Assembly: GCF_030586465.1 (NCBI RefSeq)
Contig: NZ_JAUQYP010000001.1
Location: 1,723,323 to 1,755,733 of the forward strand
Source of the DNA: Actinotalea lenta
GTDB lineage: Bacteria > Actinomycetota > Actinomycetes > Actinomycetales > Cellulomonadaceae
Length of the DNA stretch: 32,411 bases
Direction of reading: 5' to 3'
Shown: piece after piece, positions 16,984-32,372 of the stretch
Position numbering within the stretch: the first letter of the stretch is position 1
Layout: each line of letters begins with the position of its first letter
Program-made: the position numbers and the translations under genes
The notes under the pieces: generated by a model
What the model saw: only the letters and a program-made list of their open reading frames with translations
The model's database searches: none
What the model was told of the DNA's origin: nothing

Positions 16984-17220
16984 GGCAGCCTCCAAGAGGG
17001 GGTTGCGTGCAAGTCAGGGAAGTCGCCTCTCGACCTCAGGCGCCCCGTCTACCGGGCGCCGTGGGCGACTCAGCAACCGTCACATGCGCGTCCCTCGGAT
17101 GCCACCTGGGGTAACAAGTTAGGGCCTGACCTGCACCGATCCCCGGGCGTCGCGGGGCCGCATCAGGTCGCACCCTGAGGGTGGTGTGCCGGCGCGTGCC
17201 GGAGCGCTCGAACCGCTCGG
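16984..17220 (-). promoter_or_regulatory. 237-bp upstream region of the polyuronate operon
   Basis: No protein-coding gene is supported here. A 7-bp hairpin GGCGCCC/GGGCGCC (17039-17045 with 17054-17060) and a short inverted repeat TAAC-AA-GTTA at about 17112-17121 lie upstream of the dehydrogenase start. They could be leader or operator elements. A clear -35/-10 pair was not found by eye. Confidence 0.35.
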
Positions 17221-17293
17221 CGCCCCCGGCAGGATTCGAACCTGCGACCAACGGATTAGAAGTCCGACGCTCTATCCACTGAGCTACGGGGGC
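17221..17293 (-). tRNA. tRNA-Arg(TCT)
   Basis: On the minus strand the acceptor stem GCCCCCG/CGGGGGC, D arm GCTCAGTGGATAGAGC, anticodon loop CTTCTAA (anticodon TCT) and T arm AGGTTCGAATCCT form a complete cloverleaf of 73 nt ending in discriminator G. CCA is not encoded, because CCG follows. Its 5' end faces the transposase/recombinase-like genes; its 3' end faces the sugar-dehydrogenase gene. Confidence 0.96.
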
Positions 17294-17317
17294 GGGGGTT
17301 CCACCCTTTAGTCCACT

Positions 17318-17341
17318 GAACCCTCCACGGAACCCTCCACG
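17318..17341. repeat. tandem 12-bp repeat next to tRNA-Arg
   Basis: GAACCCTCCACG occurs twice head to tail (17318-17329 and 17330-17341), 24 bp from the tRNA 5' end and followed by a partial start of a third copy (GAA). It lies at the left border of the accessory genes and might mark a recombination junction. Confidence 0.7.
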
Positions 17342-17413
17342 GAAGTATCCCCTTCGGAGCGGTGAGTGGGACACCTCGCTTGCTGTGCCGAGGAGCCTAG
17401 CCCGGACAGCACG

Positions 17414-17444
17414 AGACCCCGGCCGCGCACGGCGACCGGGGTCT
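17414..17444 (-). terminator. 9-bp stem-loop after the recombinase-like gene
   Basis: AGACCCCGG (17414-17422) pairs with CCGGGGTCT (17436-17444) around a 13-nt loop, 27 bp beyond the stop of the minus-strand recombinase-like gene. It has no T-tract. It would end the left module's transcript before tRNA-Arg. Confidence 0.6.
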
Positions 17445-17471
17445 GGGCTCCTGACGCGAGTGGTGTTGGGG

Positions 17472-18389
17472 TCACGCTGCGCGGCTGAACTCCTGCAGCC
17501 TTGCGCGCAGCGCGTCCTTCGGGGCGTCGAGGCCCCGAATCTTGGCGGCGGCCTTCAGGCCGTGTACGCGCTTGGTCGTGGCGACGCGCCAGCGGACCAC
17601 GCTCATGGGGGTGACCGAGCGGTGGTCGATCCCGACCTCCCGGTAGAGCCGGTTGAGGTTGCCGGATGCGCTGGCGCTGGCTGCGTGTCCGCCGGCTTGC
17701 TTGGTGCCGCGGTAGGCGATGGGCGTGGTCTTGGCGCCGGCGTGGCGGGTCATGTGGAGCGTGAGCGCGAATCTGAGGGGAACCCGCCCCCACAGCGGGA
17801 TGTCGACCTTGCGCTTGGGAACGATGCCGTTGACGCCGGGGAGTTTGGCCTTGTTCGGAGACATCTCCGGGGTTAGCCGCTTGGGCGTGACGGTGGTCGC
17901 CTCGGAGGGGTTGGCACCTGCCTCGGTGAGTAGGTAGGTGATGGCGGGCTCGACTCGAGTGGCGGTTCGCATGAGGTGGGAGGTGTACACGCGCAGGACC
18001 AGCACCTCGTCGTCGGTCAGCGCCCGGCCGCGTCCGCCGGGGCGGGCGCCGCGGGCCGGGGCGAGTCGGGCGAGCAGGTCCCTGGGATCGACGTCGCCCA
18101 GGTCGGCCGCCAGTGCCACGATGGCGGCGAACACGTTCCGACAGCGGTGGGCCCTGTCGACGTCGGCCAGTTTGTGGAAGGCGCCGTCGGCCGGCACGCC
18201 GCTGGCCAGGGCGACGACCCTTGTGGTGAGCCGGAGCAGGTCGTCAACGTCCTTGGCCTCGACCACGTTCACTGCTGCAGTCACCCGTGCGATGGCGTCG
18301 TCGACTTGCAGGTCTTCGCACAGGTCCGCGGTCGAGATCGCCGATGCGGCGTCGACGATGTCTTCGAGCGTGAGGTTGGTGGGCTTCAT
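17472..18389 (-). CDS. degenerate tyrosine-recombinase-like protein (left module)
   Basis: This 305-residue protein is recognised mainly by comparison with the right-module protein at 20140-21042. Shared blocks are RALTDDEV/RPLTDEEI, the NPSE/VTSE turn, IAYRGTKQAGG/LTYRGSHNPGQ and VTPMSVVRW/VRPASVRNW. The order matches a tyrosine recombinase: an N-terminal helical core-binding domain (about 1-115), then the catalytic domain. Here the first Arg, the Gly-His/Trp and the nucleophilic Tyr are missing; only the HxxR-type Arg (VVRW) remains. It should therefore bind DNA but not cut it by the usual chemistry. The ATG follows GGAGC, and the gene lies 73 bp downstream of the DDE-like gene on the same strand, probably in one transcript. 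The integrase relationship is inferred from pattern. Confidence 0.6.
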   Translation of the reverse strand: MKPTNLTLEDIVDAASAISTADLCEDLQVDDAIARVTAAVNVVEAKDVDDLLRLTTRVVALASGVPADGAFHKLADVDRAHRCRNVFAAIVALAADLGDVDPRDLLARLAPARGARPGGRGRALTDDEVLVLRVYTSHLMRTATRVEPAITYLLTEAGANPSEATTVTPKRLTPEMSPNKAKLPGVNGIVPKRKVDIPLWGRVPLRFALTLHMTRHAGAKTTPIAYRGTKQAGGHAASASASGNLNRLYREVGIDHRSVTPMSVVRWRVATTKRVHGLKAAAKIRGLDAPKDALRARLQEFSRAA

Positions 18390-18462
18390 AGTGGGCTCCG
18401 GGTTCTAGTTCGGTACGTGTGCCCGAGCAATCGGCGTCCGAATCCACTGGGCCGTCGGGTGC

Positions 18463-19974
18463 CTAGATCTGGCGGGTGATCCGGTAGTAGGAGATCGCGT
18501 TGCGCAGCAGGCAGGCCCACAGGTGCTCGATCAGTTGGGCGTCTCCGTCCAGACGTGTCGCACGGCCGCGGTTTGCGGTGGTGCCCGTCCGCGCTTTGAA
18601 CCACGCGTGCAGGCTCTCGGTGGAGTTGCGGTCGCCATGGACCTCGGCGAATCGCTCGAGGCTTCGGGGGACGGGACGCAGGGCGGCGATCGCCTTGTCG
18701 TGCTTGCGCTGAGGGGCCTCCTCCAGGGGGTCCCAGACGGTGGTGAACTCGTGGCAGCGACCGTGGCTGCCGCATTCGAGGCGCCAACGCGTCTCCAGCG
18801 CCCAGGCCGTGCCGCGGTTGAGCCGTCGGGAAGTGATGGGCTTGACCTGCCGGAACTTGAAGAGGCCGGGCACGTCTGGGATCTGGATCGTGTCCCACAG
18901 GCCGCCGTCATCGACGTGCAGGTCATGCCAGCAGTCGGTGCCGGGCACCGGACCGAACTCGACATGCTTGCTCAAGACGACTTCGGCCCGACCTCCGGTG
19001 CGTGGGTACACCGAGATCCCGACGGGCAGCATCCCCTTGTAGTACATCTCGCGAGCCTTGTCCGCGGACACGAGCCTGGTGGCATCGCTCTTGTCGTCCT
19101 TGGTGGCACCGCTCTTGTTGCCGGGACGGGCGACGTCCTTGTTGATCACGAGCAGGCCGTGGTCACGCAGCAGATGGCCGATCTTCTTGCCGCTGATCGC
19201 CCGGTCCCACACCACGATGTGGGCGCGCGTGCCCAGTGCCCGACGCACCTCGGCCAGCAGCGTCAGCGCCTCGTTGACCTCGCCGCCCATGGACTGGTCG
19301 ACGGCCAGCACGAGGGAGCGTGCTCCGATCTTTGTGGAGACCGTGACGTGGTTGATGCCTCGTGAGGACTTTCCGTCCTGGGAGGCATCGGTCGACTTGG
19401 TCTGGAACCGTGGCGGGCGGACCTTCGCCCGGGTGTTGAAGTACCTGTAGACCTTTTCGTCTTCGTCGGGGTTCACGCACTCGCGCCGCACCTCGGAGTA
19501 CGTGCGATAGAACGTCCCGTCTCCGAGCAGGAGGTGGTGCTTGTCGGGATGGGCGTAGTCCGGCTCGCCGTCGGTGAACAGGCCGAAGCCGGTCGCGACC
19601 TGCAGCGAGGTGTTCATGAACGCCGTCCGCAGTTCCTGAGAGGCCTCGGGCGTGGCCAGGCTCTGCAGGAGCCGGTCCATGACGCGGGCCGTGGGCGGGA
19701 CGCTCGGAAGTGAGACGTCGCTACCGACCGCGGCGCGGTACCACTTGCAGACCTTGGGCCACAGCCCGCCGCGCAGTTCGGTCAGGGCGGCGTTCTGGCT
19801 GCCGTACACGCGGGCCAGGGCCGCGACCGCGATCAGCAAGTCGCGTGGGTACGCGCTGGGCCGCCCGGAGGTGGGGACGGCGCCGGCCAGGCCGTACAAC
19901 GCCGGGTAGGTCAGCAGCGCCTTGACCTCTTCACGCTTGGTCAGTTGCCGCTCCTTTACCCGTGCCTTGCCCAT
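18463..19974 (-). CDS. DDE/RNase H-fold transposase-like protein (left module)
   Basis: This 503-residue protein starts at an ATG behind a perfect AGGAGG. Candidate catalytic residues are Asp152 in LLLGDGTFYRTYSE, Asp257 in HIVVWDRAISGKK and Glu453 in STESLHAWFK, in the order and setting of IS4/IS1634-like DDE transposases, with a strand-rich insertion (about 320-415) between the second Asp and the Glu. A basic N-terminal part contains ALLTYPALYGLAG. It is homologous along its length to the right-module protein (ALLTYP/AVLTYP, GDGT, DRAISG/DGALRG, ESLHAWFK/ESNHAQFK). No terminal inverted repeats flank it, so it is not an ordinary insertion sequence. Its partner is the recombinase-like gene downstream. 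Confidence 0.72.
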   Translation of the reverse strand: MGKARVKERQLTKREEVKALLTYPALYGLAGAVPTSGRPSAYPRDLLIAVAALARVYGSQNAALTELRGGLWPKVCKWYRAAVGSDVSLPSVPPTARVMDRLLQSLATPEASQELRTAFMNTSLQVATGFGLFTDGEPDYAHPDKHHLLLGDGTFYRTYSEVRRECVNPDEDEKVYRYFNTRAKVRPPRFQTKSTDASQDGKSSRGINHVTVSTKIGARSLVLAVDQSMGGEVNEALTLLAEVRRALGTRAHIVVWDRAISGKKIGHLLRDHGLLVINKDVARPGNKSGATKDDKSDATRLVSADKAREMYYKGMLPVGISVYPRTGGRAEVVLSKHVEFGPVPGTDCWHDLHVDDGGLWDTIQIPDVPGLFKFRQVKPITSRRLNRGTAWALETRWRLECGSHGRCHEFTTVWDPLEEAPQRKHDKAIAALRPVPRSLERFAEVHGDRNSTESLHAWFKARTGTTANRGRATRLDGDAQLIEHLWACLLRNAISYYRITRQI

Positions 19975-19992
19975 CGTTCCTCCTAGGCGGCG

Positions 19993-20009
19993 CGCAGGAC
20001 GGTCCTGCG
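19993..20009. repeat. inverted repeat CGCAGGAC-G-GTCCTGCG
   Basis: Perfect 8-bp arms with a single-base centre lie 19 bp upstream of the left DDE-like gene start. This is the form of an operator for a dimeric regulator. Confidence 0.75.
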
Positions 20010-20023
20010 TCGCGGCGGCAAGG

Positions 20024-20041
20024 GGATCGGCGCCCCGATCC
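20024..20041. repeat. inverted repeat GGATCGG-CGCC-CCGATCC
   Basis: Perfect 7-bp arms surround a 4-bp centre, 14 bp from the previous inverted repeat. It could be a second operator or a small hairpin in the left transcript leader. Confidence 0.7.
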
Positions 20042-20058
20042 GGTCGCACGCCCGGCGG

Positions 20059-20089
20059 CGTTCTGCCCGGGGTGAGGGAGCGTTCTGCC
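20059..20089. repeat. 10-bp direct repeat GCGTTCTGCC with 21-bp period
   Basis: Copies lie at 20059-20068 and 20080-20089. The 21-bp spacing is two turns of the helix, so two protein copies would bind the same DNA face. Confidence 0.75.
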
Positions 20090-20103
20090 TGTTCACGGGC
20101 ATC

Positions 20104-20132
20104 TTCAAACCGGCGCGCTGGCGGCCTAGGGT
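20104..20132 (+). promoter_or_regulatory. candidate promoter of the right module, probably leaderless
   Basis: TTCAAA (20104-20109), a 17-bp spacer and TAGGGT (20127-20132) resemble an actinobacterial sigma-A promoter. The ATG follows 7 bp after the -10 box and there is no Shine-Dalgarno sequence, so transcription may begin at or next to the start codon. Confidence 0.5.
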
Positions 20133-20139
20133 CGGCGCC

Positions 20140-21042
20140 ATGAGCGAGTCCGGCTCCCAGCCGGCCGTCGTCGCCCAGGTCACGCAGGTCATGGACGCCT
20201 GGCGCGAGACCGGTGCGTTCTCCGAGCAGACCCTCGCGCGCACCGGGGAGACGCTGAGCCGGTTCGCGCTGCGGCTGACCGCGCAGGGGCTGACCAGCCT
20301 CGAGCAGGTTCAGCCGGTCCACTGCGCCGGGTTCGTCGACGCGCACACCCGCCACGGTCGGCCACCGGAACTAGCGACTCGCCACGCGCGGCGCACAGCC
20401 CTGCGAATGCTGTTCCGGGAACTGCGCTCGCGCGGCTACGACGTCGGTGACCCCACGCTGGACCTGGCGCTGCCGGCCCGCAGCACCCGCGCGGCTCGCC
20501 CGCTGACCGACGAGGAGATCGCCCTGGCACGGGCCGCCACTCGGCTGGGCGCCACAGGGACATCACTGCACCGCGCCGTGGCGTGGGCGCTGGCCGAGGC
20601 CACCGCGGTGACCAGCGAGATCTCCCAGGTGCGGCTAAGCGACCTGGACGACCCGCGCGAGCCGCGCTGGGTCACCCTGGCCGGGGCCCGCAGGGCCGAC
20701 CCACGCCTGGGCGAGTTGACACCGTGGGGCACCGCGATCATCGCGCGCCACGCGTCGTTGTTACGCCAGGCCGGTCTGCCGGGCTCGACGCTGCTGACCT
20801 ACCGCGGGTCCCACAACCCCGGTCAGGCCGCGGCCCAGGCTGCGGTGTGCAACGCGATCACCCACACGTTGCACGCCACCGGACTGGCCGCCGAGCCCGA
20901 CGTGCGCCCGGCCTCGGTCCGCAACTGGGCCGGGCGGCGCCTGTACGAGGGCGGTATGCCCGTGGAGCACGTCGCCAGACGCATGGGGCTGCGCTCCCTG
21001 GACGCGACGGCCGAGGACATCGCCCTGGAGTGGCGACCATGA
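20140..21042 (+). CDS. degenerate tyrosine-recombinase-like protein (right module)
   Basis: This 300-residue protein has an integrase layout. A SAM-like N-terminal core-binding domain spans about 10-110 (FSEQTLARTGETLSRFALRL, then TRHARRTALRMLFRELRSRG). A C-terminal domain spans about 118-300. Where active enzymes have GLRxSE it has AVTSE, lacking the first Arg. In the HxLRH box it keeps Arg261 (ASVRNW) but not the His. The end reads VARRMGLRSLDATAEDIALEW with no LGH and no Tyr nucleophile, so strand exchange by the normal route is not expected. The ATG has no ribosome binding site and sits just after a candidate -10 box. Its stop overlaps the DDE-like start (ATGA), so the two proteins are made together. 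Confidence 0.75.
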   Translation: MSESGSQPAVVAQVTQVMDAWRETGAFSEQTLARTGETLSRFALRLTAQGLTSLEQVQPVHCAGFVDAHTRHGRPPELATRHARRTALRMLFRELRSRGYDVGDPTLDLALPARSTRAARPLTDEEIALARAATRLGATGTSLHRAVAWALAEATAVTSEISQVRLSDLDDPREPRWVTLAGARRADPRLGELTPWGTAIIARHASLLRQAGLPGSTLLTYRGSHNPGQAAAQAAVCNAITHTLHATGLAAEPDVRPASVRNWAGRRLYEGGMPVEHVARRMGLRSLDATAEDIALEWRP

Positions 21043-22505
21043 CCCCATCCATCCGGTTCGCCGGAACCAGCGAACGCCTGCGCGCCGTCCTGACCTACCC
21101 CGCGATCTACCAGATCGGCGCCGAACTGGACCAGCGCTCCCTGATCGGACGCCCCCGCCTACACCCCCCGTACGTCCTGCTGATCTTCGCCTCCCTCGCG
21201 CGGATCACCCGCTCGACCGTGCGCACCGAGACCGACCTGGCTGTCCCGGGCGCCTGGGACCAGATCCGCGAGCAGATGCTGGCCACCATCGCCGAACACC
21301 GGCTCGACGTGCCGGCACCACCCACCACCCCGCCGGCATGGCACCACTGGCGACGCCTGCGCGACGAACACCTGTGCGACGACGCCGCCCTGGCCCAGAT
21401 CCGTCGCCTGCACCTGCCCCTGGCCCTCGACCTCGCCCACGACCTGGGGCTCCTGCGGACCGACGGCCCCGGCTCCCTGACCCACCCGGACCGGACCCGC
21501 GCCGTATACGGCGACGGCACCATCGTGCGGCCCATCTACGCCCCACCACGCGCCGTGCGCCTGGACCAGCCCACCGGCACCACCCTCTGGTACCCCGACC
21601 GGACCGGGCGACTGCGCGAGCGACCGAGCCAGCGCTACGACCCCGACATCGCCGAACACCACGGCCACAGCGGCCCGGTCCACGGCCACGGGTACGTCGC
21701 CTTCCACGCCCGCGGCCCCCACGTCTACCAGCGCGTCGTGCTGACCATCGACCACATCGACCGACCCGGCCAGGAAGCCAACACCGCCGTGCGACTTGTC
21801 GGGGAACTACGCGCCGCGGCCGGAGACGGCATCCAGGTCGTCGTCTACGACGGCGCCCTGCGCGGAACCCACATCGACAAGATCCAGACCCGGGACGGCT
21901 ACGTCGTGCTGGCCAAGCAACCCGAGTACACCGACGCCGCCCAGGCTCCCGCAGCGGTACGAACCGACCAAGGACGCCGCGCACCCTCCCTGCCCCTTGG
22001 CCTGGCCACCCACACCACGGCCGCGGGGCCCTGCAGCCACACCCTCGCCGCCGTCAAAGGCCGCGTGAGCCTCCTGGATCTGGACGACGCCGGCGACCCC
22101 GTCGTCGTGGCAACCCTCACCCGCGGGGCGGTCAAGCGCTCCCGGCGCAAGGACGGCACCCACCACTTCAACGTCGGCTACCGCATCCCCTGCCCCGCCG
22201 GAGACTTCACCACCTGGCTATCCCCCCACCCCACCGGCCCAGGCGACCCACGCCCAGAGCAACTGCGCATCCTGGCCGACGACGACCCCGACGCCATGGT
22301 CATCCGCGGCATCCGCTCCGACGCCGAGTCCAACCACGCCCAGTTCAAACGCACCCTGATCACCGAACGCGCCATGAGCCTGGGATGGCGACGCGGCCTG
22401 ATCGACTACTACGCCTTCGCCTGGTACTCCAACGCCCTCACCCACCACCGCGCCAACGAACTGGCTGCTGTCGAACAGCGCCGCCACGGTCGCGCCGGCG
22501 GATGA
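21039..22505 (+). CDS. DDE/RNase H-fold transposase-like protein (right module)
   Basis: This 488-residue protein is translationally coupled (ATGA) to the recombinase-like gene. The apparent catalytic triad is Asp159 in AVYGDGTIVRPIY, Asp271 in QVVVYDGALRGTHID and Glu430 in DAESNHAQFKRTL. Between them lies a strand-rich insertion containing YRIPCPAGDFTTWL, aligned with WRLECGSHGRCHEFTTVW of the left-module protein. The N-terminus (AVLTYPAIYQIGAEL, IGRPRLHPPYVLLIFASLARI) is also shared. The two proteins are diverged paralogues rather than a recent duplication. The gene ends 25 bp from the convergent hsdR stop, leaving almost no room for a transposon end on this side. An intact triad suggests active nuclease or transposase chemistry. 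Confidence 0.72.
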   Translation: MTPSIRFAGTSERLRAVLTYPAIYQIGAELDQRSLIGRPRLHPPYVLLIFASLARITRSTVRTETDLAVPGAWDQIREQMLATIAEHRLDVPAPPTTPPAWHHWRRLRDEHLCDDAALAQIRRLHLPLALDLAHDLGLLRTDGPGSLTHPDRTRAVYGDGTIVRPIYAPPRAVRLDQPTGTTLWYPDRTGRLRERPSQRYDPDIAEHHGHSGPVHGHGYVAFHARGPHVYQRVVLTIDHIDRPGQEANTAVRLVGELRAAAGDGIQVVVYDGALRGTHIDKIQTRDGYVVLAKQPEYTDAAQAPAAVRTDQGRRAPSLPLGLATHTTAAGPCSHTLAAVKGRVSLLDLDDAGDPVVVATLTRGAVKRSRRKDGTHHFNVGYRIPCPAGDFTTWLSPHPTGPGDPRPEQLRILADDDPDAMVIRGIRSDAESNHAQFKRTLITERAMSLGWRRGLIDYYAFAWYSNALTHHRANELAAVEQRRHGRAGG

Positions 22506-22530
22506 CGCCGGGATTTTGCGGAGGGCCGTG

Positions 22531-25500
22531 TCACTCCTGGGGCAGAGGTTGATCGGACTCGTGGACCGCGACGAAGAGCATCCTGCCGATCGACGCGATG
22601 ATCTTGTCCTGGGGCAGTCCGCTGTCGACCATGAACTCGGTGAACTTGTCGTGGACGTCGTTGTTCGAGAGCAGTGTCTGGAGGATCGCGGCTTGCAGGT
22701 TGGGTGAGTCGACGAACTGGTCGACACTGTTGGACTTGGCCTGCTCGATGAGGGCTTGGTTCTCGCTGAGCGCGCCTAGCAGCATCGCCACGATGCCCCG
22801 GGTCTGGGAGGGCTGGAAGTCGGCTCCGAACAGGGCGTTGATGTTGTCGATGACGTCCTGCATCGCAACCATGATCTTCTCGCGTGCTGATGCGGTGCCG
22901 GCTTCGGTGAAGCCGTGGAGGGGGTCGATGTCGCCCTTGCCGAGGCTGATGTCGACCCTTGCGCTCTTGGTGTGTTTGACCGCGAGTTCCATGCCGGTCA
23001 GGTCGATGCTCTGGCGCTGTGCGTCTTCGGCGATGACCTGGGCGAGCATCCGAAGGTAGATCGCGAGGGCTTCGAGGTAGGGGTCGGCGTAGTCGAACAC
23101 CTGGCTCATGAAGTCGTATACGCGCACGTAGGTGCCGGTGTCGCGCCGGAAGACGTCGCAGGCGTCGACTTCCTGCTGGTTGCCGGCCAGGACGGCGGCG
23201 TCGCGGCGTCGGAAGAACTCGTCGCGCGCGGGCTTCACGATCCCGGACAGGACGTTGTTGCCTTTGCCCGCCAGGTAGGCCTCGGCGGCGGCGTTGACGT
23301 CGGAGGTAGCGAAGATGCCGGCGTGTTCGAGTTTCTGGGCGATCTTCAACACGATCATCGGGTCGGTGCCCTGCTCGAGGTACGCGTCCTCGTAGTACGG
23401 CTCGAACGCCTTGCGGATGTCCTCGGGGTCGTTGACGAAGTCCAGCACGAAGGTCTTGGTCTTGGGCTCGCCGTTTGGGGTCCGGTAGGTCCGGTTCAAC
23501 CTGGACAGCGTCTGCACGGCCATCACACCCGACAGACGCTTGTTGACGTACATGGCCGACAGCAGCGGCTGGTCGAACCCTGTCTGGAACTTGTTGGCGA
23601 CGATCATCACTTGATAGGTCGGCCCGGCGAACGCATCGGCAAGGTTTGACCCGACGGTGGCGGGGTTCATCGAGGCCTCCGTGAACGGCTCCGGTGAGAC
23701 CTCCTCGTCGAGGACCTTTCCGGAGAACGCCACCAGGGTCTTCAGGGCGTAGTTCCTGGTGGTGATGTAGTCGTCCATCGCGGTCTTGAAGCGCACCGCT
23801 TCCTTGCGCGAGCCGGTGACGACCATGGCCTTGGCGTAGCCGCCGAGGAGCGGGGCGACGTTCTTGTTGAAGTGCTCGACGATGATCTTCACCTTGCCGC
23901 CGATGTTCGTCGGGTGCAGGTGCACCCACTGGAGCATCTGGATCGTGGCCTGCTGCTTGTCGACCACGAGATCCTGCTCACTAGCCTCGTGGGAGATGCG
24001 GAAGGCGGTGTCATAGGTCTGGTAGCCGCGCAGCACGTCGAGGATGAAACCCTCGTCGATGGCCTGCTTCATCGTGTACAGGTGGAACGCCCGGCGCCCG
24101 CCGCCCTCGGTGGCGGTGCCGAACATCTCCAGGGTCTTGGCCTTCGGGGTCGCGGTGAACGCCAGGAACGAGATGTTCGGGGTGTTCGCCTTCGCGTTTA
24201 CGAGCCCAGCGAGCACGTCCTGTGTCTCGAAGTCCTCGCTCTCGCCCTCCTCGGCTTCTTCGTGCTCGATCTTGGCGGCGGACAGGATCTGGCGCAGGGT
24301 TCCTGCGGCAGCACCGGACTGGGATGAGTGCGCCTCGTCAGCGATGACCGCGAAGTTCTTGCCCGCGAACGTCCCCAAGTCGGACATCACGTCCAACACG
24401 TACGGGAAGGTCTGCATCGTTACGACGATGATGTGCTTGGGGCTGTTCAGCGCCTCGTCGAGCGCCTTGGACTTCGACCCGGCAGCACGGACTGTCTTCT
24501 CGTCGATCGTCACCACCGGTGAGTCCGCGTCCTTGTCGCCGCGGAACGAAGGGTCGATCTGCCGCACGGCGGCCTGCAACTGGTCGTCCAGCACCGTCCG
24601 GTCGGTCACGACGATGACCTTGTCGAACACCTTGGTGTCGTTCGCGTCGAACAGGCGCGACAACTGGTGTGCGGTCCACGCGATGGTGTTGGTCTTGCCC
24701 GACCCGGCCGAGTGCTGAATCAGGTAGCGACGTCCCGGACCGTACTCGCGCACATCGGCGACGGTCTTCGTCACCGCGTCCCACTGGTGGTAGCGCGGGA
24801 ACAGCAGGGTGCGCTTCGCCGAGGACGTGCCGCTGATGGGGTCGTGCACGGTCTTGATCTCGAGATGGCAGAACTTGCCGATGATGTCCAGGAACGTTCC
24901 CCGCTCGAGCACTTCGGTCCACAGGTACGCGGTGGCGGACTCGCCTTCCCGCGGAGGGTTGCCCTTGCCGTGGCCGTGGCCCTTGTTGAACGGCAGGAAG
25001 TGGGTCTTGTCGCCGGCCAACTGGGTGGTCATGTAGACCTCCTCGTTGGACACCGCGAAGTGCACGAGCGCCCGGGTGGCGAACCCCAGGAGCGGGTGCG
25101 CGTGGCCGTTCTCCACTGGAAGGCGGGTGGTCTTGTACTGGGTGATTGCGTCGCCGACGGACTGCTTGAAGTCGGTCTTCAACTCCGCGGTCGCCACCGG
25201 CAGGCCGTTGATGAAGAAAACCAGGTCAATCGACCGCTCGTCACCCGGGACCGACGAGTAGTGCACCTGCCGCATCACACGCAGCCGCACGGCCTCGAAC
25301 GCTGCTGTCACCTTCGGGTTCAGAGAGTTGTTGGGGCGGAACTGGCACAGCGAGATTGGCTTCGGCGACCCCAGCACCCGCAGCGGCCTGCGCAGCAGCG
25401 ACAACATCCCGCCGCCCTGGTCGACGTCCGTGTCCAGGAAGTTGACAACCTGATCCAGCAGCCGGTCGACCTGCTTGTCGTGCTCCGGCGCCCCTGGGGC

Positions 25501-25680
25501 AGCCTTGACGGCCTTGGCCCATGCCTCCGGCTGCGTCTCCTGCAACCATGCGGTCAGGTCAGTCGGGAACAGGGCCCGCTTCGCGTCGTAGCCGTCGTCG
25601 TTCGGCGAGTACAGCCACCCGTGCGCAGCGAGGTGGGCGCAGAACTCGTCCTCGAACGACTTCTCGCTGTCCTTGGCCAT
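22531..25680 (-). CDS. hsdR: type I restriction enzyme R subunit
   Basis: This 1049-residue motor and nuclease subunit of a type I restriction system is of full length. The N-terminal endonuclease has the PD-(D/E)xK pattern with Asp152 and Glu166-x-Lys168 (VATAELKTDF). The SF2 translocase has Walker A QHSAGSGKTNT (about 322-332), DEAH in IADEAHSSQ (448-451), AFTATP and the later motifs FQTGFDQPLL and TLSRLNRT. The C-terminal helical part should dock on the methylase. It cuts unmodified DNA far from the recognition site after ATP-driven translocation. The ATG overlaps the hsdS stop (ATGA). It is the last gene of the operon and convergent with the right-module transposase-like gene. Confidence 0.95.
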   Translation of the reverse strand: MAKDSEKSFEDEFCAHLAAHGWLYSPNDDGYDAKRALFPTDLTAWLQETQPEAWAKAVKAAPGAPEHDKQVDRLLDQVVNFLDTDVDQGGGMLSLLRRPLRVLGSPKPISLCQFRPNNSLNPKVTAAFEAVRLRVMRQVHYSSVPGDERSIDLVFFINGLPVATAELKTDFKQSVGDAITQYKTTRLPVENGHAHPLLGFATRALVHFAVSNEEVYMTTQLAGDKTHFLPFNKGHGHGKGNPPREGESATAYLWTEVLERGTFLDIIGKFCHLEIKTVHDPISGTSSAKRTLLFPRYHQWDAVTKTVADVREYGPGRRYLIQHSAGSGKTNTIAWTAHQLSRLFDANDTKVFDKVIVVTDRTVLDDQLQAAVRQIDPSFRGDKDADSPVVTIDEKTVRAAGSKSKALDEALNSPKHIIVVTMQTFPYVLDVMSDLGTFAGKNFAVIADEAHSSQSGAAAGTLRQILSAAKIEHEEAEEGESEDFETQDVLAGLVNAKANTPNISFLAFTATPKAKTLEMFGTATEGGGRRAFHLYTMKQAIDEGFILDVLRGYQTYDTAFRISHEASEQDLVVDKQQATIQMLQWVHLHPTNIGGKVKIIVEHFNKNVAPLLGGYAKAMVVTGSRKEAVRFKTAMDDYITTRNYALKTLVAFSGKVLDEEVSPEPFTEASMNPATVGSNLADAFAGPTYQVMIVANKFQTGFDQPLLSAMYVNKRLSGVMAVQTLSRLNRTYRTPNGEPKTKTFVLDFVNDPEDIRKAFEPYYEDAYLEQGTDPMIVLKIAQKLEHAGIFATSDVNAAAEAYLAGKGNNVLSGIVKPARDEFFRRRDAAVLAGNQQEVDACDVFRRDTGTYVRVYDFMSQVFDYADPYLEALAIYLRMLAQVIAEDAQRQSIDLTGMELAVKHTKSARVDISLGKGDIDPLHGFTEAGTASAREKIMVAMQDVIDNINALFGADFQPSQTRGIVAMLLGALSENQALIEQAKSNSVDQFVDSPNLQAAILQTLLSNNDVHDKFTEFMVDSGLPQDKIIASIGRMLFVAVHESDQPLPQE

Positions 25681-26927
25681 CAGGCCATCACCTCCCGGGT
25701 CGCAGTCCGAACGTCGATCTGGCCCGTCACGGCCGCCGTGATCAACGCCGCGCGACGCTCCTGCGCCAGGGCGATGTGCTCGCGAGCCCTAGTGACGAGG
25801 GCGTCGATCTGAGCGGTCTCAGAGTCGAGGCGGTCGACTACCGCGATCTGCTCCGACGCTGGGATCAACGGCACTGGTAGGGCGCGTATGCGTGACACGT
25901 TGATGCGCCGGAACGTACTGCCAACCATCGCCGACTCGATCGCGAACTTGGTCGGGGAAGACTGGAGTCCGTAGCGAACGAACCTGGTGAGGATCGACCT
26001 GCTCGGCCGGATGAGGACGGTCTCTTGCCCGACCGCGAAGGGCTCGACCTCGGCGGGAACCTCCGACGCCAGCCCTACCGAAACGTTGCGAATGAAGAGA
26101 AGGTCGCCGGCCTGCGGTGCACGGTCACCGAACGTAAGGAGTCGGAAGAACTCTGCGGTCGTCCGAGGGGCCTGAGAGAGATCGACCTCGGGGCCCTGAC
26201 ACTGCCCGATGCTTGCGACTGGATAACCGGAGTCGTCATCAACGAACTCGGCCGTCACGTGCGCGCAGTCGATGACGTCTGCAAGATGCCCGAGCCGGGT
26301 CAGGCTCTGGCCGTCGCGCTGGACAACGTGCGTAATCGCCGCAACCCGCCGCTCGTCGAGCAGTCCGATCATCTCGTTCTGCTTCGCGATGAGGGCGTCG
26401 ATCTTCGCGGTCTGCTCGTCGAGGTAGTCCGCGATCGCGCGCTGCTCGTCAAGCGTTGGGACCCAAATGGGCACCGCGCGCATGACTGAGAACGGGACCT
26501 CCGTCGTTCGGACATTCGCTTTTGGCCCCGCGCCGATCCCTCGCTCGCGCGCAACCAGTTCGCCGATGAACCAGTCTGATTTCATCAGCATCGTCACGAA
26601 TCGGGGGTCGCTGTCGGCGAACGCTCGCATGACCTCGTAGTGGTACGTCACGAGTCCGTCTTCTTGAGCGACGCCTACCGCGCCCGCGCCAATGCTCATC
26701 TTGTTGAATACAATGTCGTGCTTTCGGCAGACTTTGTACGCATCGAGGCTGTCCGCGCGGGGCGGTGCATCGGAGATCTCGCTCCGGCGCACTACGCCCC
26801 GGGTCTGTGATACCGATAAGAGCGGCAGATCGACGCCGGGGAGGCGAACGTCAGTTCTCGCGACGAGGTGACCGAACCGCCCGTTGGCGGCCGCCCGACT
26901 GCCCCACCGCGGGGCCGTGCCCGTCAC
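25680..26927 (-). CDS. hsdS: type I restriction enzyme specificity subunit
   Basis: This 415-residue subunit has two target-recognition domains, each followed by a conserved helical spacer. The first half ends PTLDEQRAIADYLDEQTAKIDALI and the second PASEQIAVVDRLDSETAQIDALV (quoted spans shortened by family convention: LDEQRAIADYLDEQ and SEQIAVVDRLDSE). It should recognise a bipartite DNA sequence and direct both methylation and restriction. The GTG start overlaps the hsdM stop (GTGA), and its stop overlaps the hsdR start, so all three subunits are translationally linked. Part of the first recognition domain (roughly 26500-26750) looks lower in GC than its surroundings, consistent with domain exchange between strains. 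The exact recognition sequence cannot be read from the protein. Confidence 0.93.
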   Translation of the reverse strand: MTGTAPRWGSRAAANGRFGHLVARTDVRLPGVDLPLLSVSQTRGVVRRSEISDAPPRADSLDAYKVCRKHDIVFNKMSIGAGAVGVAQEDGLVTYHYEVMRAFADSDPRFVTMLMKSDWFIGELVARERGIGAGPKANVRTTEVPFSVMRAVPIWVPTLDEQRAIADYLDEQTAKIDALIAKQNEMIGLLDERRVAAITHVVQRDGQSLTRLGHLADVIDCAHVTAEFVDDDSGYPVASIGQCQGPEVDLSQAPRTTAEFFRLLTFGDRAPQAGDLLFIRNVSVGLASEVPAEVEPFAVGQETVLIRPSRSILTRFVRYGLQSSPTKFAIESAMVGSTFRRINVSRIRALPVPLIPASEQIAVVDRLDSETAQIDALVTRAREHIALAQERRAALITAAVTGQIDVRTATREVMA

Positions 26928-28915
26928 GCTTCGACCTCGCGCAGCATCTCGATGATCTCGGCAGCGACCTTCTCGAGGTCGGCGTCGATCTCGGCCAGTG
27001 GTCGCGGCGGGACGTAGGTGTAGAAGTGGCGGGTGAAGGGGATCTCGTAGCCGACCTTGGTCTTGTCGTGGTCGACCCATGCGCCGGGCACGTGCGGAAG
27101 GACCTCGGTCTTCATGTAGGCGTCGATGACTGCCTTGCGGGTGCCGTTGGCCTGGGCGTGCTTGTCGGTGCCGTTCCATCCGAATGGGATGTTCTCGGTG
27201 TCGCGCATCTTCGTGTCCGGCTCGATGGCTCCCCTGCGGTCGCGGCAGATCTCGGCGGTGTTGTCCCGCTCGCCCAGGAGGTCCTGCAGCGCCTTGTTCT
27301 GGGCCGCGGGGAACTTCAGCCCACGCGCATCCCCCTCGTGCTTGACCGCGGCGAGGAACGTGTCACGAGAGGTGTAGCGGGTGCCCTTGACCGCGCGAAG
27401 CGTGTCGGCGAGGGCGTCCGCATCGAGGCCCTTGAACTTCTTGTCCGCGACGACGGTCTCGACCTGCTCGTCGGTCACGTCGAACGCGAGCCGCAGGGGC
27501 CGTTCGACGGTGATGGTCCAGTAGCCGAAGTCCTGGTTGTCGAAGATCTTCGAGATGTCCGTGTCGGCGAAGGCTGCGTAGGTCTGGAGGATGGTGGCGC
27601 GGTCGGCGTCGGTGACTTCGACCCGCTTGGAGCCGAGCCCCTTGCGCATCTTGGTGCCGTAGCCGGTCGCGTCGATCAACTGGACTTTGCCGCGCCGCTC
27701 ATCGGCCTTGGTGTTGTCCAGCACCCAGATGTAGGTCGAGATGCCGGTGTTGAAGAACATGTCGGTCGGCAATGCGACGATCGCCTCGACCATGTCGGAC
27801 TCGAGCAGCCAGCGACGGATCTCCGACGGCCCGGACTCGGCACCGCCGGTAAACAGCGGGGAGCCGTTGAGGACCACGCCGACACGTCCGCCGCCGGTGC
27901 CGTCCATCTTCGCCGGGCGCATCTTGGACGCCATGTGGCACAGGAACAGCATCTGTCCGTCCGACACCGACGGGAGACCGTGCGAGAAGCGTCCTTGGGC
28001 GCCCTTGGCGGCCTCGTCGCGGACGGCCTTCTCGGACTTCTTCCAGTCCACGCCGTAGGGCGGGTTGGCGAGGACGAAGTCGAAGGTGCGGCCCTGGTGC
28101 TGGTCGTTGGCCAGGGTGTCGCCCCACTTGATGTTGTCGGCGTCGTGGCCCTTCATCAGCAGGTCGGACTTGCAGATCGCGTAGGACTCGGGGTTCAACT
28201 CTTGCCCGTACAAGGTCAGGGCGGCGTTGGGGTTTTGGGCGTGGATGTGCTCCTCGGCCAGCGACAGCATGCCGCCCGTTCCCGCGGCGGGGTCGTAGAT
28301 GGTGCGCACGGGCACGCCCTCGGCACCGAGTTTGTCGTCCTCCGCGATCGCCAGGTCGACCACGAGGCGTACCGCGTCGCGCGGGGTGTAGAACTCGCCG
28401 GCGGTTTCGTTGGACGCCTCGGAGAACCGGCGGATCAGGTCCTCGAACAGGTCGCCCATTTCGGAGTTGGACAGCGCATCGGGGTGCAGGTCCACCTCGG
28501 CGAAGCGGGAAGCGACGGCGTAGAGGATGTTCGCCTCGTCGAGTTCAGCGATCGAGTCGGCAAACTTGAACCTCTTGAACACGTCGATGTTGTCCGAGAA
28601 GCCCTCGACGTAGGCCAGTGTGTTCTCCGCCAGCGCGTCCGGATCCTCCATGAGGGAGGCGAAACTGTGGGGCGAGGAGTTGAACAGCCACAGGCGGGTT
28701 TGCTTGTGAGCCTCCATCAGTGCCAGGCGCGCAGCGAGGCGTCGTTCAGCGATGCTCTGCATCGCCGGGCGGTGGGGCTCCATGATGCAGTCCAGACGTC
28801 GCAGCACCGTGAAGGGCAAGATGATCGAGCCGTACTGGTGGGGCTTGAAGACGCCGCGCAACTGGTCCGCGATGGTCCACACGAACGCGGACATATTGGT
28901 CGTGCCCACTGTCAC
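26924..28915 (-). CDS. hsdM: type I restriction enzyme methylase subunit
   Basis: This 663-residue N6-adenine methyltransferase has an N-terminal helical HsdM_N region (MSAFVWTIADQLRGVF) and the SAM-binding motif I DPAAGTGGM (208-216). The catalytic motif IV is NPPYG (284-288) and EFYTPRDAV is the usual hinge. The C-terminal part beyond about 450 is longer than in small HsdM proteins. It methylates adenines in both half-sites together with HsdS, protecting host DNA. GTG at 28915 follows GGAA; an internal ATG at 28894 (MSAFVWT) is a fair alternative. It is first in the hsdM-hsdS-hsdR operon, and its stop overlaps the hsdS start. Confidence 0.95.
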   Translation of the reverse strand: MTVGTTNMSAFVWTIADQLRGVFKPHQYGSIILPFTVLRRLDCIMEPHRPAMQSIAERRLAARLALMEAHKQTRLWLFNSSPHSFASLMEDPDALAENTLAYVEGFSDNIDVFKRFKFADSIAELDEANILYAVASRFAEVDLHPDALSNSEMGDLFEDLIRRFSEASNETAGEFYTPRDAVRLVVDLAIAEDDKLGAEGVPVRTIYDPAAGTGGMLSLAEEHIHAQNPNAALTLYGQELNPESYAICKSDLLMKGHDADNIKWGDTLANDQHQGRTFDFVLANPPYGVDWKKSEKAVRDEAAKGAQGRFSHGLPSVSDGQMLFLCHMASKMRPAKMDGTGGGRVGVVLNGSPLFTGGAESGPSEIRRWLLESDMVEAIVALPTDMFFNTGISTYIWVLDNTKADERRGKVQLIDATGYGTKMRKGLGSKRVEVTDADRATILQTYAAFADTDISKIFDNQDFGYWTITVERPLRLAFDVTDEQVETVVADKKFKGLDADALADTLRAVKGTRYTSRDTFLAAVKHEGDARGLKFPAAQNKALQDLLGERDNTAEICRDRRGAIEPDTKMRDTENIPFGWNGTDKHAQANGTRKAVIDAYMKTEVLPHVPGAWVDHDKTKVGYEIPFTRHFYTYVPPRPLAEIDADLEKVAAEIIEMLREVEA

Positions 28916-29253
28916 TTCCGTTCTGCCGTGAGTCGGTCGCTGCGATGCGTCCGGGCCGAGTCTATGGAGGATGCCTCGCGGTTCGTGCCGGAGCGTGAGG
29001 CGAGATGCCCTCTCACCCGCGCTTCCGCCCGCGACCGAGCGTGCGAACCGCTAATCCGAGGGCGCCCTGCGCCGAACTGTGGGTGTGGGCGTCGACGAGT
29101 ACCTGTGCCACCGCGTGACCGCCGAGGTCCATGTCAGGGCCGACCTGGAGCGGTCGCGAGGCTGTGATCGACGCCTCCACAGCATGCTGGGAGCGTGGAC
29201 GAGATGACCGCGCTGCTTCAGGAGCAGAAGCACTGCGTGGTCGTGGGCCAGTG
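28916..29253. other. 338-bp intergenic region upstream of hsdM
   Basis: No convincing gene is visible. TAGACT on the minus strand (28959-28964) is a possible -10 for hsdM, but no good -35 is found. A 16-codon ORF (ATG at 29204, GGGAG upstream) ends with a TGA overlapping the next ATG and could be a leader peptide for the plus-strand gene; that is speculative. Confidence 0.4.
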
Positions 29254-30021
29254 ATGACCTCAGACCCCCAAAGTGCCGGGGGCATCCACGCCCCGGCTGG
29301 TACACGGGCACCTATGGCACAGCCCGCCACCGACGAAGCCCGCACGCCAGGCGTGTGGGAAGACGCCGCGGCCCTGGCGTGGGCTGAACTGGAGCGGCTC
29401 AACGTCGCCGACCCGAAGGCGCTGACCGGGGAGCGGCTGGCTGCCCTCGATCACATGGACGTGTCTGGGCCCGGCAGGCGGCTGATGGCCAACCGCGCTC
29501 AGGCGGTGCTGACGCGTGAACCGGGCGGTCCGTTGATCGGCTACCTCACCGACGACGACTTCGACCGGGCGGCGCATGAGCCCGGCGTCAACCCAGCCGA
29601 CCTGGCTGCGCGTTTCCACCTTCGGCCGGAAGCCGCCCGGGCGGCGGTGGCCGACCCGAGCGACGTGGCGTATCCGCATTCGGTGAGCGTGTTCAGGGAC
29701 GGGCGGGTGGTCGCCGCGGTGTACTCGTTCGATCCAGACGAGCCGGTGGACACGGACGCGCTGGACAGCGCGCGGGCGCTGACCGGGCGCGTGAACACTC
29801 TTGTGCTCTGCCCGTTCACTGCCGCGCCGGCGATCGACGCGCCCGTGTTGGTCGGCTGGGATGTGTGGCCCGCCATCTTCGGGGTGCAGTTCGGCGAGCG
29901 CGCGCACGCGGGCCTTCGCGCCTCGCTCGTGCGCGTGTGCGCCAACCAGGTGCTCGGACAGGTTCTACCGCGGGACGAGTACGTCTATGACGCGCAGCAG
30001 CGCGGTTATCGGCGCCGCTGA
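29254..30021 (+). CDS. uncharacterised protein of about 255 residues in the accessory island
   Basis: Start choice is uncertain. The ATG at 29254 overlaps the TGA of a tiny upstream ORF; an ATG at 29314 and one at 29131 are in the same frame. The N-terminus is Pro/Ala-rich and probably disordered. From about residue 30 the protein alternates helix-like segments (WEDAAALAWAELERL, ADLAARFHLRPEAARAAV) with strands (SVSVFRDGRVVAAVYSF, NTLVLCPFTAAP, PVLVGWDVWPAIFGVQF). The segment NPADLAARFHLRPEAARAAV resembles a small helix-turn-helix. There is no signal peptide or membrane segment. I do not recognise a family. Its place after a restriction system suggests accessory cargo, without indicating a function. 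Confidence 0.6.
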   Translation: MTSDPQSAGGIHAPAGTRAPMAQPATDEARTPGVWEDAAALAWAELERLNVADPKALTGERLAALDHMDVSGPGRRLMANRAQAVLTREPGGPLIGYLTDDDFDRAAHEPGVNPADLAARFHLRPEAARAAVADPSDVAYPHSVSVFRDGRVVAAVYSFDPDEPVDTDALDSARALTGRVNTLVLCPFTAAPAIDAPVLVGWDVWPAIFGVQFGERAHAGLRASLVRVCANQVLGQVLPRDEYVYDAQQRGYRRR

Positions 30022-30212
30022 GGGGCCGTCGCCCACCCGACCGGGTGAGCAGCCAGTAGGTGGGCGTGCACGTCGAGAGCGGTGGGCGTGAAGACGTCGT
30101 ACGCACCGTCACGGGCCCGCTCGTGGCCGCCCGCCGTACGTTCCGGACGAGACTCACCGGAGGTGCAAGCGCCGCTGAGCGCATCGCGGCTCACATGACC
30201 GGGTGAGCAGCC
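30012..30212. repeat. imperfect direct duplication with about 157-bp period
   Basis: GCGCCGCTGAG at 30012-30022 recurs at 30169-30179, and GACCGGGTGAGCAGCC at 30039-30054 recurs at 30197-30212, with a one-base length difference between the paired blocks. The first copy covers the stop codon of the preceding gene. Confidence 0.7.
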
Positions 30213-30367
30213 CGGGACGCCTCGCGGGTGCTCTCGTCTCGAACCCGCGCACACGCTCACGCAACCTCGAGCGCCCGTCCCTCGGCGTGCCAGGCTCGGA
30301 GCGCACTCCCGCCGAGGACAACACGGACTCCTAAAGCGCCGACACCCAGGGGCGCTATGGTCCGGCC
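30022..30367. other. 346-bp intergenic region
   Basis: Apart from the direct duplication, no gene is supported here. A minus-strand frame at 30006-30260 lacks a ribosome binding site and overlaps the end of the preceding gene. The promoter of the next gene should lie near its 3' end but was not pinpointed. Confidence 0.5.
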
Positions 30368-30808
30368 ATGATCTGGGATGCCCTCTCGGCGGTGGCCACG
30401 GGCGGGGCTGCGGTGACGGCTCTGGCGATCTGGCGCTGTGACATTCGACGTGCGCAGCGAGCGCGTGCTGGGCGCCTCACGGTGAGGTTGGAGACCCATC
30501 GGGGCGAGACACGACTCGTGGTTCGCAACGGTGCGGACGCTCCGGCCTACAACATCAACGTGCGCCATCCCGCCGGTGCTGCGGAGCCACGCCACATCAG
30601 CCTCCTGCCTCCAGGACGGAAGCACTCCGAGTCGGCGCCCGAGGAGTTCCTCCCGCCGTCGGCTCTTGACAGCGCCGCCCTCGACACCTGGTTCACGATG
30701 GACGAGCGACGATGGCACATCAGCCCTACTGGGAGCCTTGCTGGTGGTCACCGAGACGCCCCCAACCGTCCAGACCCGCCACCGCCCGCAACGCCAGTGA
30801 TGAAGTAG
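30368..30808 (+). CDS. membrane-anchored hypothetical protein with a small strand-rich domain
   Basis: This 146-residue protein has an N-terminal hydrophobic helix (WDALSAVATGGAAVTALAIW, about 3-22) and a basic segment. A compact domain follows (RLTVRLETHRGETRLVVRNGADAPAYNINV, quoted in part as RGETRLVVRNGADAPAYNI), then PPG and WFTMDERRWHIS and a Pro-rich tail. This helix plus short Ig-like domain is a pattern I know from many uncharacterised actinomycete and prophage proteins. The ATG at 30368 fits the helix. It ends 35 bp before the nuclease gene on the same strand, so they may be co-expressed. Function unknown. Confidence 0.65.
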   Translation: MIWDALSAVATGGAAVTALAIWRCDIRRAQRARAGRLTVRLETHRGETRLVVRNGADAPAYNINVRHPAGAAEPRHISLLPPGRKHSESAPEEFLPPSALDSAALDTWFTMDERRWHISPTGSLAGGHRDAPNRPDPPPPATPVMK

Positions 30809-30843
30809 CCCACGACGGGTGCGGCGGGCGATACGGTGCGCCC

Positions 30844-31914
30844 GTGAGGTGGCAAAGCAGGGGGCGACGGGCGGCGTACATAACGGTTGCCGCGGGCCTC
30901 GCACTCGCGGCAGGTGGATGCACCCCGGTTGCCGCAGGGAAGTCATCCGCGACGACACCGACGACCGTCTCGCAGTCGCCCGCTACGACGGCGCCGACCG
31001 CCACCGCGGAGCCCTCGAGCGCGTCGCCGACCGTCGATACGGCCGCGGCGGTGGAGTCTGCGGCGCCCGAGACCGCGTTGGCGGCGGTGGGCGAGTTGGT
31101 GGTCAAGGGTCGCGCACCCAAGACGGGGTACGACCGTGACCTGTTCGGGTCCGGGTGGGGCGATACGGACCACAACGGGTGCGACACCCGCAACGACATC
31201 CTGGCCAGGGACCTGACGGGCACGACGTTCAAGGCCGGCACCCACGACTGCGTGGTGCTGACCGGGACCTTGGCGGACCCGTACTCCGGTAAGACGATCA
31301 ACTTCGTGCGCGGCGAAGGCACCTCGACCGCGGTGCAGATCGACCACGTGGTGGCCTTGTCGGACGCCTGGCAGAAGGGCGCCCAGCAGTGGGAGGCCAC
31401 CAAGCGGGTGGCGTTCGCGAACGACCCGATGAACCTGCTGGCCGTGGACGGCCCGTTGAACGCGCAGAAGGGCGACGGGGACACCGCGACGTGGCTGCCG
31501 CCGAACAAGGCGTTCCGCTGCCAGTACGTGGCCCGCCAGGTCGGGGTGAAGGCCACCTACGGGGTGTGGGTCACCGTGGCCGAACGCGACGCCATGGTCC
31601 GGGTGCTGTCCACGTGCCCCAACGAGCCGCTACCTCCAGGAGCAGGCGCGGCGCCGTCTGCGAGCCCGACATCGACCCCGACACCGGAGACCACCCCCGC
31701 GCCACCGCCGCCCCCGGCTCCCGCGCCACCGGCACCACCGGCACCTGCGCCAGAGCCTGCGCCGGCGTGCGACCCCTCCTACCCAGACGTGTGCATCCCG
31801 CCCTACCCGCCGGACCTGAACTGCAAGGACGTCCCCTACAAGCGGTTCAAGGTCGTCGGCAGCGACCCGCACGGCTTCGACCGCGACCACGACGGCATCG
31901 GCTGCGAGAGTTAG
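30844..31914 (+). CDS. secreted DUF1524/HNH nuclease with C-terminal Excalibur-like domain
   Basis: This 356-residue protein begins with a hydrophobic signal (about 10-25) ending in an AAGGC lipobox-like site. A Ser/Thr/Ala-rich linker follows, then a DUF1524 HNH domain (about 80-260) with DHNGCDTRNDIL (109-120) and QIDHVVALSDAW (165-176); the Asp-His pair is the metal-binding core of the beta-beta-alpha fold. A Pro-rich linker (265-308) leads to a Cys-rich end, NCKDVPYKRF...DRDHDGIGCES, an Excalibur-type calcium-binding loop (DxDxDG). It should act outside the cell or at the surface on DNA. The GTG start at 30844 is chosen to place the signal at the N-terminus. Roles in nutrient DNA use, competition or defence cannot be separated. 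Confidence 0.85.
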   Translation: MRWQSRGRRAAYITVAAGLALAAGGCTPVAAGKSSATTPTTVSQSPATTAPTATAEPSSASPTVDTAAAVESAAPETALAAVGELVVKGRAPKTGYDRDLFGSGWGDTDHNGCDTRNDILARDLTGTTFKAGTHDCVVLTGTLADPYSGKTINFVRGEGTSTAVQIDHVVALSDAWQKGAQQWEATKRVAFANDPMNLLAVDGPLNAQKGDGDTATWLPPNKAFRCQYVARQVGVKATYGVWVTVAERDAMVRVLSTCPNEPLPPGAGAAPSASPTSTPTPETTPAPPPPPAPAPPAPPAPAPEPAPACDPSYPDVCIPPYPPDLNCKDVPYKRFKVVGSDPHGFDRDHDGIGCES

Positions 31915-31992
31915 CCCCGAGAACATACCGACTGCGGAAGGCGGCATGGGGACACTCGTCACTCCGTCGGACTTCACCCGTGAGCGCGCCCG

Positions 31993-32038
31993 TCAAGCGC
32001 CTTGAAGGGTGTGGACTTGAGTGGCTAGTTCGACTCAA
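31993..32038. promoter_or_regulatory. inverted repeats upstream of the DUF3892 gene
   Basis: TCAAG-CGC-CTTGA (31993-32005) and TTGAGT-N10-ACTCAA (32017-32022 with 32033-32038) lie in the 147-bp gap before the gene. They may be operators; no clear promoter boxes were identified. Confidence 0.4.
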
Positions 32039-32061
32039 CGACGAGACGAGGGGGCAGCAGC

Positions 32062-32322
32062 ATGGCTGACCGACGCGTGACGAACACCCACAAGGACGAC
32101 CAGGGCGACATCATGGCCCTGTGCGCCCCGGGGGCCGCCTGGTCGCCTCGGGGCAAGGGCGATGCCATCCGGGACATCGATAGCGGGGTGCACACGTACT
32201 ACGTGCAGTGGACCGACAAGCGCACCGAGATCACCGTGGTGAACGGGCCAACAGGCAAGTACCTGCGAACCGACTGGGACAACACGAGCAGGAACAATTT
32301 GGACGACCTGCCGGACTGCTGA
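32062..32322 (+). CDS. DUF3892-type small protein
   Basis: This 86-residue protein with the ATG behind GAGGGGG shows the DUF3892 pattern. It starts MADRRVTNTHKDDQGDI, then GAAWSPRGKGDAIRDIDSG, a strand-rich middle TYYVQWTDKRTEITVVNG and a C-terminal YLRTDWDN...NNLDDLPDC. The family is short, cytosolic and of unknown function, often found in accessory regions. It is followed by a very strong hairpin, so it is probably a single-gene transcript. The assignment rests on recalled family features and not on a search. Confidence 0.78.
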   Translation: MADRRVTNTHKDDQGDIMALCAPGAAWSPRGKGDAIRDIDSGVHTYYVQWTDKRTEITVVNGPTGKYLRTDWDNTSRNNLDDLPDC

Positions 32323-32328
32323 GGTGCG

Positions 32329-32372
32329 CCCGCAGGCCCGGCCAGAGCAGGGGCTCTGGTCGGGCCTGCGGG
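32329..32372. terminator. 20-bp stem-loop, probably a bidirectional terminator
   Basis: CCCGCAGGCCCGGCCAGAGC (32329-32348) pairs with 32353-32372 around the loop AGGG, with a single G-T wobble. It sits 6 bp after the DUF3892 stop and 7 bp before the stop of a likely convergent gene. Confidence 0.85.

Follow-up and report, generated by a model that had tools for sequence, protein, structure and literature searches.

Yeast Ty1 and Ty3 elements and casposons use tRNA genes as insertion sites; Ty insertions fall upstream of the tRNA and leave its start unduplicated, and casposons use Cas1. Tn7 duplicates 5 bp of its target, and insertion sequences carry no passenger genes and stay under about 3 kb. 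For Tn7-like elements, one account describes a cargo enriched in defense genes (PMC8649781); in another, the TnsF protein of Tn6022 has an inactivated tyrosine-recombinase domain and targets comM, and CyCAST homes to a site 30 to 33 nt past the 3′ boundary of a tRNA-Leu gene (PMC10293859). We describe here a four-gene locus of Actinotalea lenta, within a stretch of 32,411 nucleotides (contig NZ_JAUQYP010000001.1, positions 1,723,323 to 1,755,733; hereafter, the window), in which two putative DDE transposases (ddeL and ddeR) are paired with two proteins related to tyrosine recombinases (recL and recR). With a probability of roughly 0.8, judging from the sequence, the locus belongs to a transposon that carries cargo and has the 5′ end of tRNA genes as its insertion site.

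Like the Tn7-like elements, especially Tn6022 with its TnsF, this would be a site-directed DDE transposon with defense genes in its cargo, and recR resembles TnsF in being a dead tyrosine-recombinase domain encoded beside transposition genes. However, neither Pfam nor NCBIfam has a family that matches the window transposases, TnsB-type (rve) and IS4-group profiles included, the target is position +1 of a tRNA gene, and the duplications are 8 bp. The CyCAST site also differs in not lying at a tRNA 5′ end (PMC10293859). The enzymes of Ty1/Ty3 and casposons are unrelated to the window transposase, and, unlike insertion sequences, the eight elements delimited in this study span 4.2 to 38.5 kb. By these tests of membership, the element is neither Tn7-like nor an ordinary insertion sequence; in its workings it resembles a targeted cargo element of the Tn7 type, but its transposase is unrelated. 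A literature search, with most subscription journals and preprints outside its reach, returned no description of such a transposon.

Although the earlier note on this DNA, made from the sequence alone, had seen no terminal inverted repeats, one starts at 17294, directly against an intact tRNA-Arg gene (Table 1), and its partner ends at ~40666, outside the window. There, the tRNA-side end recurs in inverted orientation, and after it comes ACGGGGGC, the 8 bp that precede 17294. The element so bounded is 23,373 bp long, with a G+C content of 0.69 versus 0.72 and 0.74 in its flanks. As read from these ends, insertion is at tRNA +1 with the first 8 tRNA nucleotides duplicated, and the mature tRNA is thus left intact. 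Both ends and an 8-bp duplication were also located in G425 (34.7 kb, tRNA-Arg TCT), G590 (Nocardioides halotolerans, 38.5 kb, tRNA-Lys), G589 (Blastococcus, 20.6 kb, tRNA-Lys), G584 (Streptomyces ardesiacus, 25.2 kb, tRNA-Arg CCT), and G135 (26.8 kb, tRNA-Arg CCT); G593 (Gordonia sputi, 9.0 kb, with a one-base offset) and L124 (4.2 kb, with a duplication matching at 7/8 positions) are weaker cases. Far ends could not be found by simple similarity to the tRNA-side end and emerged once the first 8 tRNA nucleotides were sought beside the repeat. In that way they were accepted for the window, L209/210, L215, and L124 among 40 entries scanned (some genomes twice), later for G584 and G135 of six, and then for G425 and G590.

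In general, the element ends form an imperfect inverted repeat starting GGG or GGTGG, and two repeats of roughly 12 bp, mostly ending CCC or CCCC, stand against the tRNA 5′ end. The window shares this design with the other loci, its GTGGA units recurring every 12 bp up to the first tRNA nucleotide; at its far end, 7/12 positions match at lag 12. A leave-one-out matrix gave the tRNA-abutting site the top rank in 29/30 loci, the exception being L150. The best repeat lag was 12 in 31/39 loci, compared to 4/21 control tRNAs, one of these controls (L078) being a solo end; the height of the repeat is a weak signal (mean best of 12, 8.8 in elements versus 7.6 in control tRNAs) and the lag a clearer one. 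With up to three mismatches allowed, the end pattern was present in 2 of 200 family genomes, that of A. lenta itself and G399. A 12/12 inverted-repeat-like match in L114, inside an operon and without a target duplication, was rejected as an element end. At another locus (L147, 7700-7900), an element end gives way to the 8 nt with which tRNA-Arg begins (GCCTTCGT) and then, judged by eye, to the apparent start of a different element's end, which looks like the arrangement expected from repeated insertion at one tRNA.

The association with tRNA genes extends beyond the window. Among 45 full-length loci of the R type, in which rec comes first as in recR-ddeR, a same-strand tRNA starts 100 to 450 bp past the dde stop in 25, versus a background of 2/413 for the other called genes of L096 to L161; once decayed copies are counted, a tRNA lies within 600 bp in 38/63 loci. 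These 38 targets comprise nine tRNA species (Arg CCT, TCT, and CCG; Thr TGT and CGT; Lys TTT; Phe GAA; Ala TGC; Gly CCC), and every one of the 38 counted has the D-arm sequence TAGCTCA. When tRNAs on either strand up to 1,500 bp downstream of dde are considered, 41/42 lie on the dde strand with their 5′ end facing dde, the single exception being a second copy in L138. That locus (5998-10175, Streptomyces lushanensis) has two dde modules facing each other around a tRNA-Arg. In the window, the gene nearest the tRNA-Arg is recL.

Several observations weigh against this reading. No nearby downstream tRNA was found for 20 of the 45 full-length R-type dde genes; for four of these (the window, L055, L118, and L140), a tRNA was found at the element end, and the other 16 are unexplained. 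The far end was not found in G284, G474, G591, and G592 despite 37 to 50 kb of upstream sequence, nor in most loci with shorter upstream sequence. Without its offset, the G593 end scores 27.0, below permuted patterns (maximum, 33.5); with the offset, it exceeds 100 shuffles. Neither the same-genus loci around tRNA-Arg nor the Streptomyces loci sharing the gene to the left of one element contained a clean empty site, synteny being different, and we therefore infer insertion from the ends and the duplication. A test for the nearest TANNNT motif placed it 57 to 80 bp before the tRNA in 18/18 Acidimicrobiia-type loci; elsewhere, it was at 31 bp or absent in 17/18, with 106 bp in the window and 17 to 84 bp for control tRNAs. 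The test lends no support to promoter replacement at the tRNA outside one group, so such replacement is only a guess. Foldseek alone gave no match for the DDE model at an E value of ≤0.001, a match to Tn5 coming from a second look. Finally, in three genomes of the same genus (G399, G411, and G405; loci L224, L225, and L226), tRNA-Lys(TTT) is preceded by a sequence like the tRNA-side end of the window, and the genes called within about 10 kb include no dde or rec. These sequences are possibly solo ends left after element loss; they could also be a native tRNA leader, but, by eye, nothing of the kind precedes any of the 17 tRNA-Arg genes among the genus matches.

The pairing of the two protein types is nearly constant. 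With profiles built from the family, window proteins included, rec was found directly upstream of dde, on the same strand, in 43 of the 45 full-length R-type cases, each with at least 1.3 kb of upstream sequence. The exceptions are L143 and the truncated L147, as counted against the earlier note's refuting case of DDE-like genes that usually stand alone as ordinary insertion sequences, and the elements with located ends, at 4 to 38 kb, are not short insertion sequences. This supports the suggestion of an undescribed mobile element that keeps both proteins. Relatives of ddeR occur in 15 of 396 genomes of a sample of the phylum, A. lenta included. A scan of named genomes, with 80 pattern-matching stretches of which 69 proved to be relatives, gave 66 loci, a number that may be a lower bound; judged by their labels, all are actinobacterial except L109 (Acidobacteria). 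Mycobacterium plasmids carry relatives, annotated in one plasmid as "integrase" and "hypothetical protein". No relative was matched in phages, nor among 46 pattern matches in viral contigs or 17 in a first scan of genome contigs with a single-protein query.

As the earlier note described, the four genes form two divergent pairs around a 165-bp center (19975-20139), with 25 bp between the right pair and hsdR and a 4-bp overlap of recR with ddeR. Homology between the two DDE proteins runs the length of both (26% identity; E value, 7e-17), and the D-D-E triad (D159, D271, and E430 in ddeR numbering) is kept in all 45 aligned DDE proteins, taken from 50 eligible sequences. A profile search found no match among PDB sequences. 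The ddeR model has an RNase-H DDE fold with a beta insertion, a predicted likeness to the Tn5/IS4 superfamily. YREK is the signature of that superfamily; at the corresponding positions of the 45 proteins, R and E are invariant, Y is present in 31, and K in 10, with D instead in 31. The family differs from Tn5/IS4 in this K, in the lack of a profile match, and in its dedicated partner, large cargo, and tRNA targeting.

The rec proteins resemble Xer and lambda Int in fold and profile. The recR protein has the tyrosine-recombinase fold, with profile similarity to XerA (E value, 5e-12) and XerD (1.3e-11) and subthreshold Phage_integrase and Xer matches in Pfam and NCBIfam. Selectors of the TnsF type have N-terminal zinc fingers and a TniQ partner; recR has no Pfam zinc-finger match, and no TniQ domain was seen among the neighbors scanned. 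Homology between recL and recR is weak but detectable (29%; E value, 4e-4), and recL matches nothing in Pfam or NCBIfam. Active tyrosine recombinases share the catalytic set R-H-R-H/W-Y. In contrast, none of 43 aligned R-type rec proteins (of 48 eligible) has the His, the His/Trp, or the Tyr, and the two Arg residues never occur together. An active tyrosine recombinase is not supported; in recL, the catalytic C-terminal motif was not seen by eye.

Twin modules recur. An extra DDE copy lies near an R-type pair in G425, G590, G596, G589, L121, L129, and G031; L-type pairs have dde first and rec second. No recL was detected in G031, and in G596 the contig ends before its expected position. Seven L-type DDE proteins form one group in the tree (support, 97/97), whose backbone is poorly resolved, and the second DDE of L028 is not clearly inside that group. 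In all four twins with located ends (the window, G425, G590, and G589), a single set of ends encloses both pairs; thus, a twin is one element that has two machines, paralogous to each other. That a lone pair can be enough is suggested by the elements with just one. The recR gene of the G425 twin is split over two reading frames (L055, 16247-17199).

We infer that rec, as a probable target selector, would recognize the tRNA gene (perhaps by its D-arm TAGCTCA), the tandem 12-bp repeats next to the tRNA, or both, and so bring the transposase to the tRNA site, where dde would excise the element and join its two ends with a stagger of 8 bp. The tRNA leader, and perhaps its promoter, would then be supplied by the element end, so that insertion would do little harm. 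The ddeL-recL pair is a diverged paralogue of the first pair, and the two may act jointly, for instance with one transposase per end or two target choices. Taken in full, this would describe a new transposon superfamily spread in Actinomycetota, in which a Tn5-fold transposase and a dead recombinase-derived guide insert at +1 of many tRNAs through their shared D-arm, replace the promoter and leader with the element's own end (able to persist as a lasting footprint), and ship defense islands, twins using one transposase per end; we hold this full version tentatively, at a little under even odds.

It is rather unlikely, though the strongest of the alternatives, that in the same transposon rec is an end-binding or architectural partner acting on the 12-bp repeats, with the DDE protein itself recognizing the tRNA. 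The prevalence of the 12-bp repeats at the tRNA-side end, by their lag, over controls fits such a role; at the far end, however, they stand out less, so that general end binding explains less, and the precedent of TnsF is that of a target selector (PMC10293859). Far less probable is a domesticated genome defense or rearrangement system, also raised in the earlier note, with dde and rec part of an immune function. Type I restriction-modification, GmrSD, McrBC-like, NACHT-like, and E1-E2 genes are indeed neighbors, but these vary among the elements examined, whereas rec-dde, the ends, and the tRNA target are constant; ends with target duplications are a mark of insertion, and PADLOC models gave no match to any of the four proteins of the locus. 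The defense genes have the look of cargo, and the four genes that of a transposition apparatus; of the earlier interpretation, the joint mobile element is supported, and domestication and missing repeats are not. We give least credence of all to an ordinary tRNA island in which a tyrosine integrase acts at the tRNA 3′ end and the DDE genes merely travel along. Integrase islands classically sit at tRNA 3′ ends, and several loci have a cluster c4 gene just beyond the tRNA, the one scanned member of which has Phage_integrase, but 41/42 downstream tRNAs present their 5′ end to dde, the duplication is of the first 8 nt and not a 3′ block, R-type rec proteins lack the catalytic tyrosine, and no direct repeat of the tRNA 3′ end was found in the one search made for it, 18-mers of the window's tRNA matching the tRNA alone in the window, L064, and L065.

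If the cargo transposon reading is correct, it would explain how some defense genes come to stand beside actinobacterial tRNA genes without a tyrosine integrase, and the element ends would allow new defense islands to be delimited precisely. It would provide a bacterial transposon using the front of a tRNA gene as a harmless landing site, comparable to yeast Ty elements, and, after TnsF, a second dead tyrosine recombinase as a probable target selector. Should the partner select the target, this would be a compact protein-guided insertion system with a large cargo and a universal site.

Table 1. Features of the A. lenta element and its target (window coordinates)
Feature	Position	Strand	Remarks
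tRNA-Arg (TCT)	17219..17293	-	target gene, intact (ARAGORN)
Target-site duplication ACGGGGGC, 8 bp	17286..17293; second copy ~40667-40674, outside window	.	first 8 nt of tRNA, minus strand
Terminal inverted repeat, tRNA side	17294..17318	-	partner ~40642-40666, outside window; 19/24 positions
Tandem 12-bp repeats (GTGGA units), tRNA-side end	17294..17342	-	lag 12, 12/12 matches within 60 bp of the tRNA
Transposon, part inside window	17294..32411	.	whole element 17294 to ~40666
recL	17472..18389	-	305 aa; diverged paralogue of recR
ddeL	18463..19974	-	503 aa; second DDE transposase paralogue
recR	20140..21042	+	300 aa; tyrosine-recombinase fold without catalytic residues; probable target selector
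ddeR	21039..22505	+	488 aa; DDE transposase, Tn5-like predicted fold
hsdR	22531..25680	-	type I restriction; PADLOC REase_I
hsdS	25680..26792	-	specificity; Pfam Methylase_S; start uncertain, open ORF to 27179
hsdM	26924..28894	-	Pfam N6_Mtase and HsdM_N
GmrSD_C protein	31051..31914	+	restriction endonuclease C-terminal domain; cargo

Besides type I restriction-modification and the GmrSD_C protein, the cargo in the window consists of unknown genes, and no TnsC or TniQ/TnsD domain was found among the window-element cargo genes scanned. The G425 element (613602-648336) carries type I restriction-modification, Mrr, an ABC-3C component, an AAA helicase with a nuclease domain, and a NACHT/HEAT-like protein that falls below Pfam cutoffs; G589 carries adenine methyltransferases, AAA, and McrBC, and G590 carries HsdR, GmrSD, and E1-E2. 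The Streptomyces loci add a regulator of the XRE type and an uncharacterized protein about 300 aa long, and four of them also have a gene whose one scanned member is TniB-like. This ATPase gene (L155, 321-1022; relatives in L130, L148, and L149) lies upstream of c2-rec-dde and might be a further transposition component. Also upstream of rec in Streptomyces loci is a conserved unknown protein (L138, 3760-4656; a cluster of 19 loci), whose scanned member has no Pfam or PHROG match. Two cargo proteins of the window element (29314-30021 and, outside the window, 33424-34092), neither with a Pfam match, have similar starts and are possibly a duplicated unknown gene.

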